IMG/VR virus record: IMGVR_UViG_3300037070_000164
Location: 1-24,865 of that record
DNA length: 24,865 nucleotides
Source: a virus
Direction: 5' to 3' (one strand)
The notes beneath the pieces were generated by a model that had not been told where the DNA came from, ran no database searches, and was given only the letters and a program-made list of their open reading frames with translations. Shown in pieces: positions 6,538 to 23,006 of the stretch (position 1 is the first letter of the stretch; every line of letters starts with the position of its first letter). Made by a program: the position numbers and the translations under genes.

Positions 6538-7704
6538 ATGGTTGCACCTACCCCACGTACACCCAACTACAAGCTGCTGCTGACTGAGCCAGACAGGCGT
6601 GGCTGGCAGGATCAGTACTACGAGAACATGCGTATCATCGACAGTGGCCTCGCTGCGGTCACGTCGATCAGCAACTTCATGGGTGTGTGGGCGAACAACA
6701 CTGCGTACGAACTTGGTATGCGTGTGACTGATCCGTCTACGTCCATCATCTACGAATGTGCCACTCCACACACTAGCTCAGCAAGTCCTGTCACGTTCAC
6801 TGAGGAACGACTTGCACATCCTACGTACTGGGGCACGTACTCGTTCGGCGTACGGTTCCGTGGTGCATGGACACCTGACACACTGTACAGTGTTGGTGAC
6901 TACATTGCACATGGACATGTCTACGCCATATGCAGCACTGCTCACGTCTCTGGTGCTGTGTTCGATACAGGTCCGTGGGAGGAACTGATCGATGCGACTG
7001 CAACTGTAGAGGCATGCGAAGCACAAGTTGTGCTGGCTCAGGAACAAGTTGCACTCGCTGCGGCGCAGGTAGCACTTGCTGAAGCACAGGTCGCACTTGC
7101 ACAGGCAGCAGCCGCTGCTGCTGAAGCATCAGCTATCAGTGTCGGTGCGCGTCTCATTGGTACATCCACTACGTCACTGACACTCGGTCTTGGACCGATC
7201 ACACTGACGACACAGACGGCAGAGGGTTGGGCACCTGGACTGTATGTCACAATCGCACGTGGTGATGCACCTGTACAGTTCATGTCTGGTGTCGTCACAG
7301 CGTACGACCCTGGCACTGGTGTGTTGAATGTCACTGTTGACTTCGTTAGCACTGACGCTGGTACGACACATGCGAACTGGACGATTGGCATTGGTGGTCG
7401 TGGTGGTGGAGGTGGAGGTGGAGGATCAGTCGTGAGCAGCACAGCCCTTGTCACAACCGTGCCAGCGACGCTGGTCAGTTCACAGATACTCGCTGACAAT
7501 CCCAATCGCACTGGTGCAGCGATCTACAATGACAGTGCGGCTGAGTTGTTGGTCAACCTAGGTGCCGCTGCATCAAGCAGTGCGTTCACAGTAGACATGC
7601 TGCCTGGTGCGTACTACGAGTTGCCATTCGGCTACACTGGTGCACTGCATGGCATATGGGCTGCTGCGACTGGTAACGCAAGAGTTACGGAGTTTGAAGT
7701 CTGA
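6538..7704 (+). CDS. Modular tail fibre/adhesin with two chitin-binding-like modules and a coiled coil
   Basis: This encodes 388 residues from ATG 6538, one base after the preceding stop; a TTG at 6520 is less likely. Residues 1-40 form a phage-attachment type N-terminus (PNYKLLLTEPDRRGWQDQYYENMRIID in outline). Residues about 47-100 and 108-150 are two similar modules with the pattern G.W...T.Y..G..V......Y.C...H.S, resembling the small carbohydrate-binding modules CBM5/12. A heptad coiled coil with VALAxAQ units (about 157-199) follows, then a beta domain (200-285), a Gly run (286-296) and a C-terminal beta domain ending in RVTEFEV. The coiled coil suggests a trimer. The likely role is cell-surface binding, or attachment of the three fibre-like proteins encoded just downstream. 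The modules are my reading of the pattern, not a database hit. Confidence 0.75.
   Translation: MVAPTPRTPNYKLLLTEPDRRGWQDQYYENMRIIDSGLAAVTSISNFMGVWANNTAYELGMRVTDPSTSIIYECATPHTSSASPVTFTEERLAHPTYWGTYSFGVRFRGAWTPDTLYSVGDYIAHGHVYAICSTAHVSGAVFDTGPWEELIDATATVEACEAQVVLAQEQVALAAAQVALAEAQVALAQAAAAAAEASAISVGARLIGTSTTSLTLGLGPITLTTQTAEGWAPGLYVTIARGDAPVQFMSGVVTAYDPGTGVLNVTVDFVSTDAGTTHANWTIGIGGRGGGGGGGGSVVSSTALVTTVPATLVSSQILADNPNRTGAAIYNDSAAELLVNLGAAASSSAFTVDMLPGAYYELPFGYTGALHGIWAAATGNARVTEFEV
7027..7110 (+). repeat. Four 21-bp units encoding heptads VxLAxxx
   Basis: Four successive seven-codon units encode VVLAQEQ, VALAAAQ, VALAEAQ and VALAQAA. They give hydrophobic residues at positions a and d of a parallel coiled coil. 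The DNA units are diverged at third positions, so the repeat is old or selected at the protein level. Unit number could change by slippage or recombination. Confidence 0.8.
7393..7424 (+). repeat. G-rich run encoding a polyglycine linker
   Basis: Eleven closely spaced GG doublets on the coding strand (GGTGG, GGTGGTGGAGG, GGTGGAGG) encode a Gly-rich linker in the fibre protein. A two-tetrad G-quadruplex is possible but weak. A flexible hinge between two beta domains explains it at the protein level. Confidence 0.6.
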
Positions 7705-8849
7705 TGCCGTACTTCCCACCTGCTGGTGGCGGTGTCGTACTGCCGAACAGCATCAGTGACGGCACTGTCAAGGGTCGTGCTGTCGGTGCCGGTACAGGTG
7801 ATCCACAGGACTTGACACAAGCACAGCTTGCAGGTGTCGTTGCGACTGCTGCACCACTCAGCTACAGGAACATACTTGGCAGGAACGGTGGATTTGAAGT
7901 ATGGCAACGCAGCGCGGGTGGTAGTGCAAATTTCGGTATGGCGGCGTCGGCACAGCAATACGTTTCTGATGGGTGGTGGTGTCTGGCAGGAGCACAGACA
8001 ACGGTGTTGCAATCCGGCCCATTGGTTTACGGCTCGCGCTGGTCAATCTATATCGCACGCAATGCCGGACAGACCGGCGTGTCGCCTTACTATCTTGAGT
8101 TCCCACTAGATACCGATGAGATCGTGCCGATGCGTAATAGCATCGTCACGCTGTCGCTGACCATGTATGCGGGCGCCAACTGGTCGCCCGCAAGCGGCTA
8201 CGCAAGTGTACAACTTCTGACTGGTACGGGAGCGCCGGCACGAATACTGGCGGGGGCCTACGCAGGTCAGACACTGGTAATCCCTGGAGTGTCAGCACTG
8301 GTTCCTGGTGGTGCTGCAACACGCTACAGCTTCACGTCTGCCGCTGTCGTGCCGACGAACGCTACGCAAGCGACGGTGCTCATCACATGGACACCAGTTG
8401 GCACTGCGGGTGCCGCAGATAGCATCAACATCGATGACGTACAACTCGAAATCGGTACAGTCGCTACACCATTCGAGAGACGACCGTTTGAGAGTGAGTT
8501 GTTGGCGTGCAGACGGCACTACTGGAAGACGTTTTCGTATAACACCGCACCAATACAAAATTCAGGTGGCGGTGGCATGTTCAGGGCGGGTCAAATTGTT
8601 GCAGCGTCGACTTTCTCTGAGTACGGCCCTGCAAGCTTCCCTGTTCCGATGCGTGCCGTGCCGACAGTTACAGTTTACAATCCGTTAGCACTTAACACGC
8701 AGATGCGAAACTTCAATACGAGCACAGATTTTACTTCGACAAGCATAGCACAACACGAATGGGGCACATCATTCAATGCAGTAAGTCCTGCTGGAAGTGT
8801 GCCTGGAAACATCATCGGCGTTCACATCACTGCCGACGCAGGTATCTAG
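7704..8849 (+). CDS. Receptor-binding/tail fibre paralogue 1
   Basis: This encodes 381 residues from ATG 7704, overlapping the previous stop by one base (TGATG). The layout shared with the next two genes is: a short Pro/Gly leader with TVKGRAVGAGTG (residues 21-32); a SYRNILGRNGGFEVWQR block (53-69) opening a jelly-roll-like domain; PLDTDEI and VTLS strands; DDVQLEIG.ATPFERRPFE.ELLAC (244-269); a RHYWKTF motif; and a divergent C-terminus (278-381) ending in HITADAGI. The NGGFEVWQRG...ADGW...DDVQLE...C.R(Y/H)Y layout is common in phage tail-fibre and surface-binding proteins with a CBM-like sandwich. The variable C-terminus is the likely receptor-contact part. Base use in parts of this copy (about 7905-8300 and 8530-8760) differs from its neighbours, suggesting recombination. 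No enzymatic residues are evident. Confidence 0.75.
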   Translation: MPYFPPAGGGVVLPNSISDGTVKGRAVGAGTGDPQDLTQAQLAGVVATAAPLSYRNILGRNGGFEVWQRSAGGSANFGMAASAQQYVSDGWWCLAGAQTTVLQSGPLVYGSRWSIYIARNAGQTGVSPYYLEFPLDTDEIVPMRNSIVTLSLTMYAGANWSPASGYASVQLLTGTGAPARILAGAYAGQTLVIPGVSALVPGGAATRYSFTSAAVVPTNATQATVLITWTPVGTAGAADSINIDDVQLEIGTVATPFERRPFESELLACRRHYWKTFSYNTAPIQNSGGGGMFRAGQIVAASTFSEYGPASFPVPMRAVPTVTVYNPLALNTQMRNFNTSTDFTSTSIAQHEWGTSFNAVSPAGSVPGNIIGVHITADAGI

Positions 8850-8851
8850 CA

Positions 8852-10015
8852 ATGCCACTCTATCCACAAGGCGGCGGTCTGTATCCTGACTCGATCAGCA
8901 ATGACATCCTTGCCGACATGCCAGCGAATACAGTCAAGGGTCGTGCTGCTGGTACTGGCACTGGCAATCCGACTGACATACCGATGTCGTCGCTCGTTGC
9001 CGCGTCACAAGGACTGAGCTACAGGAACATACTCGGTCGCAATGGTGGGATGGAAGTTTGGCAGAGAGGTGCTGGTGGGAGCGCATCGTTCCCTGCCGTT
9101 GCTGGTTCGATACAGTACACCGCTGATGGTTGGGTGTTCTATTGCCCAAGTGGTGGCTCTACGCATTCCGTACTGCAAATCGCCGTCGCCGCACCGAATG
9201 GATCGCGCTACGGCTTCGTAGCGCAGCGTGTTGCAGGACAAACTGGCCTGCCAGCACCGACACTGGAATATCCTCTCGACACAGATGAAGTCGCACAGAT
9301 GCGTGGCAACCTTGTCACGCTGTCGTTCTCTGCATTTCCTGCATCTAACTTCTCTCCAGCGGGTGGGCTTGTTACGTGTCAGGTGCGTGTCGGTACGGGT
9401 GCGCCTGTCAAGCGCTTTGTGTCTGGATACACAAGTGAGACGGTGCTCATCAATGCCACTGCTGCCGTGACTTCGCTGCAAGCACCACCATTCGCATTCA
9501 CGTCGAGTGTCGTGGTGCCGACCAATGCGACACAAGGGTGTGTGGCTTTCACATGGACACCGACCGGCACTGCTGGTGCGGCTGATTACTTCTGGCTCGA
9601 TGACGTACAGCTAGAGGTCGGTTCTGTAGCGACACCATTTGAACGTAGACCATTTGAGAGTGAGTTGCTTGCTTGTCAGAGACACTACTGGAAGACATTT
9701 CGATATGCAATTGCACCAGTACAGAGTGCTGGTGTGAATACGTGTGATCATCAATTTGCAGCAGTCGCTCCTGCATCCAATTCATTTTGGCACTTCCTGC
9801 CGCACCCGATGCGTATGCGTGCCACTCCAACCATCGTTACTTACAATCCAGAAGCAATGAACAATCAGGTGCGTTGTGCGTTGGTCGCGCAGGATTGCAG
9901 CTCTACAAGTATCCTTGGCAGCGAGCGTGGCATGCAGCTTGTTGCTGTTACTGGTGCTGGCAACTCGCCACAGCATTTGCTGGCAGTGCATATCACAGCC
10001 GACGCAGGTATCTGA
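8852..10015 (+). CDS. Receptor-binding/tail fibre paralogue 2
   Basis: This encodes 387 residues from ATG 8852, two bases after paralogue 1 stops; an in-frame ATG at 8759 lies inside paralogue 1 and is rejected. AGGTATC upstream belongs to the DAGI codons of paralogue 1. Domain order is as in paralogue 1: leader with NTVKGRAAGTGTG (26-38), block A at 56-80, PLDTDEV at 141-147, DDVQLEVG (250-257), block B at 260-283, and a distinct C-terminus (284-387) with CDHQFAAVAP and MRMRATPTIVTYNPEAMN, ending HITADAGI. It has extra Cys residues in the C-terminal part. It probably assembles as a trimer, alone or with its paralogues, at the tail tip. Whether the three form one hetero-oligomer or alternative fibres cannot be told from sequence. 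Confidence 0.75.
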   Translation: MPLYPQGGGLYPDSISNDILADMPANTVKGRAAGTGTGNPTDIPMSSLVAASQGLSYRNILGRNGGMEVWQRGAGGSASFPAVAGSIQYTADGWVFYCPSGGSTHSVLQIAVAAPNGSRYGFVAQRVAGQTGLPAPTLEYPLDTDEVAQMRGNLVTLSFSAFPASNFSPAGGLVTCQVRVGTGAPVKRFVSGYTSETVLINATAAVTSLQAPPFAFTSSVVVPTNATQGCVAFTWTPTGTAGAADYFWLDDVQLEVGSVATPFERRPFESELLACQRHYWKTFRYAIAPVQSAGVNTCDHQFAAVAPASNSFWHFLPHPMRMRATPTIVTYNPEAMNNQVRCALVAQDCSSTSILGSERGMQLVAVTGAGNSPQHLLAVHITADAGI

Positions 10016-10018
10016 CAC

Positions 10019-11074
10019 ATGCCGTACTATCCGCAGACACCTAGCTACGCACCACCCAATCCGTTGTCGTATCGTAACGTGTTGGGTAGGAATGGTGGGT
10101 TCGAGGTGTGGCAGAGGGGCGCTGGTGGGAGTGCGTCGTTCGCAGTTCCACAAAGCACAGTCATGTACACGGCAGATGGCTGGCTTGTGAACGTTGGACC
10201 CAATCAGGCGACGACTGTCTTTCAGGCATCTCCTGGTCCTGTGTTGGGATCGCGCTCGACTTGTGTTGTGCAGCGTAACAATGGACAGACAGGTGCAGGT
10301 TTCAGTTCATTCGAGTTCCCACTCGATACGGATGAGATCGCACTAGCGCGTGGATCGATTGTCACGCTGTCGTTCACTGCATGGGCTGGTGCCAACTGGT
10401 CGCCGACGAGTGGCATCCTCAGTGTTGCACTGTACGTTGGCTCTGGCACTCCTGCGAAGCGTGTACTTGGTGCGTACACCAACGAACTCAAGCTGATCGA
10501 TGCAATTGCCCCACTCACAGCGACGCAGACACGTTATACATTCACGTCTACTGCTGTCGTGCCTGGCACTGGAGCACAAGCAGCACAAGCGTCAGTATTC
10601 TTCTCGTGGTCGTCGGTTGGTACTGCGGGTGCAAGTGACTCGTTTGCAATCGATGACGTACAGCTTGAGATCGGCACACAAGCAACACCGTTCGAGCGCA
10701 GACCGTTCGAGCAAGAGTTGCTGGCGTGTCAGCGGCATTATTTCAAGACATTCCCGTATGGGACCGCACCAGCATCGAACATTGGCGACACAGCGGCATA
10801 CTTCGTTTCACAAATAGTCGGCGCATCGGCAGGAATGTGGTGTGCGCCAGGAGTGCGTTATCCACGTGCAATGCGCGTAAATCCAACAGTCACTTTGTAC
10901 AATCCTGCTGCTCCCAATGCACAGGCGCGAAATCTTACATTTGCTGTGGACTGTAGTGGAACAACATTGGGTGCCGGCAATGATGCTACTGCACTCATGA
11001 GTGTGACAACACCAGCTTCCGGTGGTGTTGGTAACTTGCTTGCTGTTCACGTCACTGCCGACGCAGGGATCTAA
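10019..11074 (+). CDS. Receptor-binding/tail fibre paralogue 3 (short leader)
   Basis: This encodes 351 residues from ATG 10019, three bases after paralogue 2 stops, with CAGGTATC from the conserved upstream 3' end as ribosome binding site. It lacks the TVKGRA..GTG leader of the other two; only MPYYPQTPSYAPPNP precedes block A (17-41). PLDTDEI lies at 101-107, DDVQLEIG at 212-219 and block B at 222-245. The C-terminus (246-351) is unlike the other copies except for the MR..PTVT.YNP element and the final HVTADAGI. The missing leader suggests it may attach differently, for example to a paralogue rather than to the virion directly. The family assignment is the same as for paralogue 1, with the same uncertainty. 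Confidence 0.75.
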   Translation: MPYYPQTPSYAPPNPLSYRNVLGRNGGFEVWQRGAGGSASFAVPQSTVMYTADGWLVNVGPNQATTVFQASPGPVLGSRSTCVVQRNNGQTGAGFSSFEFPLDTDEIALARGSIVTLSFTAWAGANWSPTSGILSVALYVGSGTPAKRVLGAYTNELKLIDAIAPLTATQTRYTFTSTAVVPGTGAQAAQASVFFSWSSVGTAGASDSFAIDDVQLEIGTQATPFERRPFEQELLACQRHYFKTFPYGTAPASNIGDTAAYFVSQIVGASAGMWCAPGVRYPRAMRVNPTVTLYNPAAPNAQARNLTFAVDCSGTTLGAGNDATALMSVTTPASGGVGNLLAVHVTADAGI

Positions 11075-11076
11075 TC

Positions 11077-11295
11077 ATGACAACTGAAACATACAAGCTC
11101 AATGCAATGGGTGGTGTACAGCGTCTCAGTGACGGTGCATTCATTCCAGAGGATGAACGCAACGCTGACTGGCGTGCGTATCAGAAGTGGGTCAGTGAAG
11201 GTGGTACGGCATTCGCTGCTGATTACGAAGCACCAGTTGGTGAAGCACAAGCGACTGGCAAGCGCAAGGCGAAGGACGTGCGCGAACTAAAGTGA
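11077..11295 (+). CDS. Small fibre-associated protein (72 aa)
   Basis: ATG 11077 lies two bases after paralogue 3, and CAGGGATC in its last codons acts as ribosome binding site. The 72 residues contain GAFIPEDERNADWRAYQKW followed by a Gly turn and a Lys/Arg-rich C-terminus (GKRKAKDVRELK). The pattern IP.d..N.DW..Y..W...G is one I know from short phage proteins encoded immediately after tail fibres and linked with fibre assembly or attachment. That link is from family resemblance only. The stop overlaps the next GTG start (GTGA, 11292-11295). Confidence 0.7.
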   Translation: MTTETYKLNAMGGVQRLSDGAFIPEDERNADWRAYQKWVSEGGTAFAADYEAPVGEAQATGKRKAKDVRELK

Positions 11296-11690: not shown

Positions 11691-11896
11691 TGACCACATC
11701 TGTAACGATTGCTAGTCCGTACAACGCAACGCATGGACTTGTTGTGGAAGTGATGGATGGTGAGGAAGTAGTCAAGACGTTCAAGGTCGCACCACGTGAG
11801 ACTGCTGAGACGCTGCACATCGAGGATGACACTACCATCACGATCCGACAGGACAGTGATACGATGCCTGGTGCAGCGGAGCCGCGTGGCAAGTAA
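11690..11896 (+). CDS. Small beta-rich protein (68 aa), unknown
   Basis: ATG 11690 overlaps the holin stop by one base (TGATG), with AAGGAG six bases upstream (11678-11683). The neighbouring in-frame ATG at 11687 has poorer spacing. The protein reads MTTSVTIASPYNATHGLVVE onward, with alternating beta strands, acidic residues and a C-terminus ending in EPRGK. It has no cysteine, signal or membrane segment. Its stop (TAA 11894-11896) overlaps the next ATG. It is probably a small virion or fibre-related protein, but I do not recognise it. Confidence 0.65.
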   Translation: MTTSVTIASPYNATHGLVVEVMDGEEVVKTFKVAPRETAETLHIEDDTTITIRQDSDTMPGAAEPRGK

Positions 11897-12447
11897 TGTA
11901 CAGTGTGCGTCGCATGGAGCCACGTGACGCACCAGCCATCCTGCGCCTCACACGTGAGTCGATTGAGAACAGTGTGTTCCACATCGAGGACTACTCACCA
12001 AAGCGCATCCTCGAACAACTAGTGATGGCAGTTGACCATCCAGAGTGGTACTTCGGTATCGTTGGTGAGCGTGATGGTGAGGTAGTTGGTATCAAGTGTG
12101 CGTGTGTGATGCCATGCTTCTACTCTGACAACAAGGTGTGTTGGGACCAAGCTACATACGTGACACCGAAGGCACGGTCGTTCAAGCTACTGTACATGAT
12201 GGTACAAGCGTATAAGCAGTGGGCTATCAGTGTTGGTGCAAGACAGGCGTACCTAGGTGCTACATCACAACCAGACAACCCACGCATCGCAACACTGTTC
12301 ACACGACTTGGCTTCCAACCAGCAGGCACACTGCATGTGATGGAGATTGACAATGGGCAAGGGTGGCGGCGGCGGCAACGAGTACGCGATGTACCAGATG
12401 CAGCAGCAGGCGAAGGAGCAGAAAGCCGCCGACGAAGCTGCGGCTGA
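11896..12447 (+). CDS. GNAT-like acetyltransferase with overprinted C-terminus
   Basis: This encodes 183 residues from ATG 11896, overlapping the previous TAA by one base. It has a GNAT-like order: RRMEPRDAPAILRLTRES start, a strand plus WYFGIVGERDGEVVGI (51-66), CWDQATYVTPKARS (82-95), helix FKLLYMMVQAYKQWA, SVGARQAYLGA, and the late RIATLFTRLGFQPAGTLHVME element. The usual R/Q-x-x-G-x-G/A acetyl-CoA loop is not obvious after YVTPKARS. GNAT proteins acetylate amines, and similar genes sit near internal virion genes in several podoviruses, with unclear targets. From residue 153 the frame runs through the start of the next gene, so the last 31 residues (Arg- and Gly-rich) are read from its +2 frame and are probably not part of the fold. 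Confidence 0.7.
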   Translation: MYSVRRMEPRDAPAILRLTRESIENSVFHIEDYSPKRILEQLVMAVDHPEWYFGIVGERDGEVVGIKCACVMPCFYSDNKVCWDQATYVTPKARSFKLLYMMVQAYKQWAISVGARQAYLGATSQPDNPRIATLFTRLGFQPAGTLHVMEIDNGQGWRRRQRVRDVPDAAAGEGAESRRRSCG

Positions 12448-20591: not shown

Positions 20592-23006
20592 TCACAACTC
20601 CATTGGTATGAGATCACTCCAGCGACGCATCTCTCTGTCACCAGGCACCCACTTCACTTCACATGGTATGATGAGTGAGTCACCACGTATGTACAATGGC
20701 TTCTCTGCGTAGTGCTTCATGATCGCAGCGACACGCTTGGCGTCATCGATCTTGCACAGTGCTGTGTTGCTGTCATGCACGTTCAGTCTGATCTTGGCGT
20801 GCGTCGGCCACGCACTGTCTTCGTGGCACTGGTAGATGACTTGGGTGTTTTTGTCTCCAATGGTGGACTGGGGCTTGAAGGCGACGATTGCTTCAAGCTG
20901 TTCGTCATCTTGTAACCGCTCCATGAGACGCCAGACCCGTCCGAATGGAGTAACCAGTTTCCGTTCACGACGGACTGTGGCTTCCAAGTCGGACCACCAG
21001 CGTCGCAACTCCGGTGTGATAGAGTGATACAGATTGTAAGCTCGCACGGCGTCGTCGTAGGGGAGACCAGTGACTTCTGCAAGACGGTCTGGACCCATGC
21101 GGTAATTGAGGCCATGTCTACAGCGTTTAGCGATATACCTTTGCGTGTAGTTTCCATCGATGAAGTCCTTTGTTGGCACGTCATCATACGGTATCTTGAA
21201 CATCTCACTTGCTAGTGCACGATGACAGTCGTACTTGCCATCACGTCGTGCCTGCTCGAACTGCTGCTTCCACTTGATGATGTTCGCATCCCATGCAACG
21301 AAGCGTGCTTCTGCTTGTGACAGATCGTAGTACACGAACGTGTAGCCAGGATCAGCAATGTACATCTCACGTGCCTTGGGTGGCACGTTCTGCATGTTCA
21401 AGCCACTGTGCCACATGTTCTGTGCACTAGACAGACGACCTGGTGCTGACTGTGTGCCGAACTGTTTGTACTCTGTGCGTGCGCGACCGTCAGGATCAGT
21501 GCGACTGCTCACGCTGACGCTGTAGAACTTGTGTTCCTTCTTGTAAGCAGCCAACGCCAGTATGACGTTCTTGTCTTCGAGTCGCGTACGTGGGTGCGCA
21601 AGTATGTGCTTGCGGTTAACATCCGCTGTAGAATGGCCCCGTCCAGTGAGCTTAAGGCGACGGAACAGAAGATCAGATATCTGAGGCGCGCTACGTGGAT
21701 TTGGGTATAGCGTGGTGTCGCCTGTCGCTTCATGCACGGCAGCCACAAACTTCTGTTCGAGTTCATCGACAAGCGCTGCATAGTAGGTGTCGAACTCCTG
21801 CTTCCGTTTGGCATCGACTAGCACTCCACACACTGTCATGTCAGTCAGGTGTCGCTGTGCACGCATGACATGATTGAAGAACAACTGATCGAGGTGTTGT
21901 TGCTTGAGTTCGACAAGCAACTTCTCACTACATGCTAGTGTGATACAACAGTCCTTGACGTTGTAGATCCAGAAGTCCTCGATGCGTCCGTCTGACTTCT
22001 CGCGCCACTCGGTGCGTTCGCCTTTGTAGTACGGATGTGTGGTGTACTGTGCAGTCAGGAAGCCAAGGTCGTGAGGCGCACTTGGGTAGAGTAGATGATG
22101 CGCGAGTAGGGTGTCGAACCATACGTGGTGAACAGCAAGTCTGTCTTTATAAGCAAGCCAGTAGCTGTCGAAGTTACCGTTTTGAGCCACGAGGCGTGTG
22201 TCACCATCTCCAAGAAGTCGTTGAATAGCACGGCGAACGCGTCGCTCGTCTGTGATCGCATACCGATTTCTGTGAGCGTCACGAAAGTTAATGCACATCC
22301 CTTCATACGGACTGTTCGCCATTCCGATGCAAGCAGTTTCACCGGCAGTGGTTTCAATATCGAACGCAACAGGCTTTCGTTCATCAGCCATGCGTCCACA
22401 CCATAGCACAGCTTCATCTGGGGACGGGTCGATGTGAGGAACGATTGTGTGCTCACGCCAGGTACCTCTCATCACCATGTCGAGCTTTGTGAGATCGAGT
22501 AGGAACCACGCTTCCATGCTTGGTGTTCGCATGATGTGTGCTGGGTTGTTCGTTATCACGTAGTAGCGGTCGTCCACAGTTAGCACAGAACCGCGCCAGT
22601 TGTCCACTCCACTTCGCCCACTGAGCGCTTCTAGTGCGACATTGCCGAGTACGAGCACATACTTTACGTTTCGTAGACATGACAACTCCCACTTCACCAG
22701 TCCTTGCCAGTGTGCGAGTTCGTTCGGTGGTATCTGCTCCTTGCCTTTGACACTAGCGAGTTGTCTCTTGACCACATTGGTGATGTAACACTGTCTGCGA
22801 GTAATGCCGAAGCGTCGTAAACTATTCCACAAATAGTTGCCGCTCCCACCAACGAGGGGGAGACGCATCCGCACCTCCTGCTCACCTGGGGCTTCTGCCA
22901 CAATAGCGAGCTTTGCATCCACATCACCATCACCATACACCTGTATCTGCAATCCAATGGGTGCTGCACGTGCAGCGAACTCCCTCTGCATCTCACCTAT
23001 GTTCAT
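20592..23006 (-). CDS. UDG-fold / 3'-5' exonuclease / family A DNA polymerase fusion
   Basis: This encodes 804 residues from ATG 23006-23004, with GGGAGG seven bases upstream (23019-23014) and an ATGA overlap with the upstream stop. Residues 33-178 look like a family-4-type uracil-DNA glycosylase fold: VAEAPGEQE (36-44), LVGGSGNYLW (51-60), CYITNVVK (73-80), VLGNVALEAL, and NNPAHIMR (153-160) where the usual HPA loop is expected. The exonuclease has FDIET (D216/E218), QNGNFD (N276/D280) and YNVKD (Y348/D352), so proofreading looks intact. Polymerase motif A is YDLSQAEAR (D561), motif B is RYIAKRCRHGLNYRMG (R623, K627, Y635) and motif C is VHDS (H744, D745). It is the replicative polymerase of the phage. 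The His of the UDG loop and the N-terminal Cys of an Fe-S cluster are absent, so glycosylase activity is doubtful. Confidence 0.9.
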   Translation of the reverse strand: MNIGEMQREFAARAAPIGLQIQVYGDGDVDAKLAIVAEAPGEQEVRMRLPLVGGSGNYLWNSLRRFGITRRQCYITNVVKRQLASVKGKEQIPPNELAHWQGLVKWELSCLRNVKYVLVLGNVALEALSGRSGVDNWRGSVLTVDDRYYVITNNPAHIMRTPSMEAWFLLDLTKLDMVMRGTWREHTIVPHIDPSPDEAVLWCGRMADERKPVAFDIETTAGETACIGMANSPYEGMCINFRDAHRNRYAITDERRVRRAIQRLLGDGDTRLVAQNGNFDSYWLAYKDRLAVHHVWFDTLLAHHLLYPSAPHDLGFLTAQYTTHPYYKGERTEWREKSDGRIEDFWIYNVKDCCITLACSEKLLVELKQQHLDQLFFNHVMRAQRHLTDMTVCGVLVDAKRKQEFDTYYAALVDELEQKFVAAVHEATGDTTLYPNPRSAPQISDLLFRRLKLTGRGHSTADVNRKHILAHPRTRLEDKNVILALAAYKKEHKFYSVSVSSRTDPDGRARTEYKQFGTQSAPGRLSSAQNMWHSGLNMQNVPPKAREMYIADPGYTFVYYDLSQAEARFVAWDANIIKWKQQFEQARRDGKYDCHRALASEMFKIPYDDVPTKDFIDGNYTQRYIAKRCRHGLNYRMGPDRLAEVTGLPYDDAVRAYNLYHSITPELRRWWSDLEATVRRERKLVTPFGRVWRLMERLQDDEQLEAIVAFKPQSTIGDKNTQVIYQCHEDSAWPTHAKIRLNVHDSNTALCKIDDAKRVAAIMKHYAEKPLYIRGDSLIIPCEVKWVPGDREMRRWSDLIPMEL

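Follow-up and report, generated by a model that had tools for sequence, protein, structure and literature searches.

Three tandem fibre paralogues with position-specific leaders suggest an adapter-type receptor-binding cassette in an uncultured tailed phage

Why would a tailed phage carry three related fibre-type genes side by side? The window analysed here, a stretch of 24,865 nucleotides from an uncultured tailed phage (IMG/VR record IMGVR_UViG_3300037070_000164), encodes three such proteins next to a fourth protein, g8. The question is whether the three are displayed together, each in a place of its own, or represent alternative versions of a single fibre.

Full-length alignment bears out the description of the three same-strand genes (Table 1) as tandem paralogues of about 50% identity, copies 2 and 3 being 52% and 54% identical to copy 1 (E down to 1e-100). 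The slot-2 start is set at 8852, as the mechanical open reading frame from 8759 begins too early. Among the three copies, identity reaches 85–89% in block A (copy 1 residues 51–77), 43–50% in the middle of the core, 79–84% in block B (copy 1 residues 240–277) and 80–90% over the final ten residues, confirming the shared blocks and terminus noted in the initial annotation. Its further statement that the sequence after block B hardly matches is right as to divergence but not as to ancestry. The 94 residues past block B, which form the tip, remain 30–37% identical, keep positions in common (MRxxPT..YNPxAxNxQxR) and reach the same terminus, so the three tips are divergent homologues. Hypervariable tip loops are ruled out, as the strands vary no less than the loops. 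A linker of about 35 residues, marked by the motif TVKGRA, is present in copies 1 and 2 and absent from copy 3. Near position 7760, copy 1 lacks 24 nucleotides in frame (8 linker residues) that are present in relatives L041 and L002; this gap is the sole difference seen in copy 1 from these two otherwise near-identical relatives.

Table 1. Features of the fibre locus, in positions of the window
Feature	Position	Strand	Description	Evidence
g8, candidate adapter	6538..7704	+	N-terminal anchor ~1-150, coiled coil 153-197, glycine-rich spacer, C-terminal platform	
g8 C-terminal domain	7426..7701	+	92 residues, jelly-roll/cupin-like, presumed docking platform	
Slot-1 fibre gene	7704..8849	+	381 aa; tip ~8535-8846	PHROG 4492 E 4e-24, alignment
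Slot-1 leader	7704..7748	+	MPYFPPAGGGVVLPN	position-specific across phages
Slot-1 last codons (AGI)	8838..8846	+	GCAGGTATC; Shine-Dalgarno-like GCAGG before slot-2 start	codon bias
Slot-2 fibre gene	8852..10015	+	387 aa; tip 9686-10012	PHROG 4492 E 1e-32, AlphaFold
Slot-2 leader	8852..8887	+	MPLYPQGGGLYP	compared residues 100% identical across phages, fourfold sites 46%
Repeats of the AGI-end Shine-Dalgarno-like codons	10004-10012, 11063-11071	+		
Slot-3 fibre gene	10019..11074	+	351 aa; without TVKGRA linker; tip ~10754-11071	PHROG 4492 E 1.5e-31
Slot-3 leader	10019..10060	+	MPYYPQTPSYAPPN	position-specific across phages
g12	11077..11295	+	72-aa protein after the array; PHROG 34019 (function unknown)	E 8.5e-11; synteny

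Each of the three proteins hits the tail fibre profile PHROG 4492 with E 4e-24 to 1e-32, over both core and tip (profile positions 784–1094 of 1096). No Pfam family match was obtained for any of them. Their matches in cultured phages are below 60% identity and mostly annotated as tail fibre, and no DNA-level similarity to the window was found in cultured phages. The AlphaFold model of copy 2, made with 37 relatives (mean pLDDT 79.9), comprises a disordered segment (residues 1–54, pLDDT under 50), a CBM4-like sandwich (57–258) and a second beta domain (279–387) corresponding to the tip; the fold of copies 1 and 3 is assigned by homology. The predicted sandwich matches the CBM4-2 module 2y6j (VIA Z 16.3, rmsd 2.4, 162 residues) and CBM-like domains of K2-2 TSP (Z 13.6), CBA120 TSP4 (13.4) and the Kp7 fibre gp52 (13.2). 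Matches to the whole model among predicted viral proteins include a CenC-like carbohydrate-binding protein as well as tail fibres. The three proteins belong to an already described type of phage tail fibre (PHROG 4492), and this assignment, along with a CBM-like fold that also occurs in tailspikes, supports the receptor-binding class first proposed for these proteins.

A scan of viral contigs recovered 37 loci with fibre-family relatives; a scan of genome contigs for a prophage relative, as a guide to the host, returned none. Each protein of the array opens with a leader of 12–15 residues whose type follows its slot: MPYFPP.. in slot 1, MPLYPQGGG.. in slot 2 and MPYYPQSP.. in slot 3. Across the only five independent arrays that carry the leaders (window, L003, L004, L005 and L006), leader identity is 0.81 for the same slot versus 0.45 for different slots (within-phage label permutation, p 0.0004), whereas the linker next to the leader carries no position signal (0.61 versus 0.60). 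The leaders are kept as protein (89–100% identity) while their fourfold sites have diverged (40–53%); they are thus conserved at the protein level, and recent DNA transfer does not explain the pattern. The leaders of slots 1 and 3 recur in L003 and L005, where the body behind them is quite different, so that a leader can head proteins of entirely separate families. The window's copy 3 and the slot-2 protein of L004 have lost the linker but retain the leader. Descent by position could account for part of the leader order. In the two-copy arrays L009–L013, the position signal of the N-termini is weak (0.62 versus 0.55). The slot-3 gene of L005 (L005:9155-10153) carries the TVKGRA-type linker twice in tandem.

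The neighbouring protein g8 combines two parts with different distributions. Its N-terminal ~150 residues are found in numerous phages from the window's capsid group, where they occur on fibre proteins. In L083, L094 and L114, a g8-type N-terminus heads a fibre ending in a Peptidase_S74 chaperone, so this segment is most likely a virion anchor, the one used by ordinary tail fibres in the capsid relatives. The C-terminal 92 residues are 60–62% identical in L003, L004, L005 and L006, and in L004 this platform follows the anchor directly in one chain. The AlphaFold model of the platform (pLDDT 88–97) has the PM2 spike P1 as its best VIA match (Z 9.4). Domains of this type are also found in phages without this array, which weakens the case for service to these fibres alone, and the platform may be a general structural domain.

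The arrangement that we favour, with confidence somewhat above even, is an adapter-type receptor-binding cassette, in which g8 is an adapter with three addressed sockets that hold three docked fibres. The N-terminal anchor of g8 would fix the assembly to the tail, and its C-terminal jelly-roll would offer the platform. Three anchorless fibre proteins, presumably trimeric and all present on one virion, would dock there in defined positions, each by its own short leader. Each fibre would present a CBM4-like domain of carbohydrate-binding type and, at its far end, a divergent tip that determines specificity; cores and tips would bind surface glycans or other receptors, and evolution would swap bodies and tips behind fixed leaders. 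The earlier suggestion of several parallel or branched proteins gains support from the anchorless proteins, the position-specific leaders and the separate anchor protein.

Five contig groups share one layout, in which the g8 C-terminal domain is followed by as many as three fibre genes and then by small genes. A homologue of the window capsid protein was not found in the records holding L003, L005 and L006; possession of the cassette therefore does not depend on a particular capsid type. A bolder version of the adapter-type cassette, which we hold only tentatively, is a portable three-address module: the 92-residue platform would provide three sockets, each reading a different 12–15-residue tag. 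On this three-address reading, phages with unrelated capsids could take up and replace as many as three receptor-binding bodies, each without affecting the others.

The same distribution bears on an alternative that we regard as unlikely, namely that the proteins form three independent fibres, each a homotrimer seated at a separate tail site off g8. Leaders that differ between slots would fit three tail proteins, and the link between leaders and g8 is one that we infer. However, the cassette occurs in phages that lack a window capsid homologue and have g8 N-termini different from that of the window (L003, L005 and L006), so the docking partner should travel along with it, as the g8 C-terminus does.

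Less probable again is that the three proteins are alternative or spare fibres competing for one site, so that a virion carries one of them or a random mix and the population has several specificities. Copy number, a comparison proposed in the initial annotation, varies from one to three among the relatives: three in the window, L006 and L002 (where the contig ends within the third), two in L004 and L009–L013, and one in others. The capsid protein of L004 matches that of the window at 98%, and gene order agrees on both flanks, but L004 has two fibre genes only, 47–52% identical to those of the window, with slot 1 absent. Such variation would suit spare fibres, but fibres that compete for one site should have interchangeable leaders, and the leaders stay distinct by position across phages. 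Least probable of all is a carbohydrate-binding decoration on head or tail that aids adhesion without determining host choice: the CBM fold and a g8-type anchor heading proteins that match a head-decoration PHROG (L054 and L116) speak for it, whereas the best family is a tail fibre, the genes adjoin that of the anchor protein, and in L007 and L018 core and tip lie at the C-terminal end of one long chain (open frame 825–848 residues).

The adapter-type cassette envisages exchange of bodies and tips, and trees of the core (216 columns) and tip (113 columns) were compared for conflicting pairs of splits; AU tests were set aside because they are biased by tree error. Three pairs conflict at support of at least 95 and eight at support of at least 90, versus none in a within-core control with the core halved, whose shorter alignments also give fewer well-supported splits. 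The slot-2 proteins of L003 and L005 have 62% core identity and 81% tip identity; for the first copies of L009 and L011 the values are 94% and 68%, respectively. The conflict between trees supports exchange of tips or cores between phages. The proposal of recombining tips is therefore supported between phages. Within the window it is not: the common blocks bear no mark of recent recombination between the copies, their synonymous sites not being clearly above chance, and the copy-1 tip is identical in the window, L041 and L002. Fourfold-site identity in blocks A and B is 22–67% on 8–9 sites each, mostly near 40%, not clearly above the 32% expected by chance; recent gene conversion among the three copies was accordingly rejected, and tip replacement was not seen between these closest relatives. 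The shared blocks look conserved for protein function.

The conserved ADAGI end may have a second role. Its second alanine is encoded by GCA or GCG in 21 of 22 family genes against a background of 0.53 (p 2e-5), and its glycine by GGG in 13 of 22 against 0.15 (p 3e-6), with p values that ignore kinship among the 22 sequences. In the three copies here, the AGI codons are biased to GC(A/G)GG(G/T). Because the next start codon often lies within about 10 bases past this end, the codon bias suggests that it probably doubles as a ribosome-binding site for the gene that follows.

The flanking genes provide further observations. The small gene g12 occurs twice in L006, after slot 1 (L006:7957-8253) and after slot 3 (L006:10358-10765), as if it moved with the fibre genes. 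A GNAT acetyltransferase (11896-12447, E 2e-6) is encoded amid the structural genes, and L004 has retained it at 65% identity. One protein, encoded on the minus strand at 20592-23006, joins a uracil-DNA glycosylase domain (UDG, E 1.7e-17) at the N-terminus to a family A DNA polymerase (DNA_pol_A, E 9.7e-27).

Should the leaders prove to be docking tags, the place of each receptor-binding protein would be set by a short peptide code that can be read from sequence. Multi-receptor phages would then be recognisable in metagenomes, where hosts are unknown, and the cassette would show a way for a phage to change one specificity while keeping the others.

Known systems offer partial parallels. In K1-5, the adapter gp37 holds two receptor-binding proteins by conserved N-terminal peptides of 7 and 11 residues (PMC6872550). 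As in K1-5, SP6 and K1E, the locus described here encodes receptor-binding proteins that have no anchor and begin with short conserved peptides, distinct for each protein, ahead of variable bodies; a candidate adapter of anchor type adjoins them. Unlike those phages, it has three positions and related CBM-type bodies, and no enzyme domain was recognised. With regard to a T4gp10-like D2/D3 docking domain, the g8 C-terminus is jelly-roll/cupin-like (Z up to 9.4) and T4gp10 is not among the matches listed for g8, a listing that does not speak against such a domain. G7C and the Klebsiella KP32-type systems pair one anchored protein with others that have a conserved N-terminal peptide and a variable body, and truncated variants occur (PMC6872550). 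The window resembles them in all of these features, but its presumed anchored protein, g8, lacks a recognised receptor-binding body and is followed by three paralogues.

In the branched TSP1–4 of Ackermannviridae, N-terminal domains are conserved and position-specific while C-terminal parts are exchanged (PMC11414711). The present array likewise has several receptor-binding proteins with position-specific conserved N-termini and exchanged C-terminal parts; there, however, the links are XD and TD domains on tailspike bodies, whereas here they would be leaders of 12–15 residues. The long PHROG 4492 chains of L007 and L018 carry the same core and tip at their C-terminus, but in one polypeptide, where the window has three short separate proteins.
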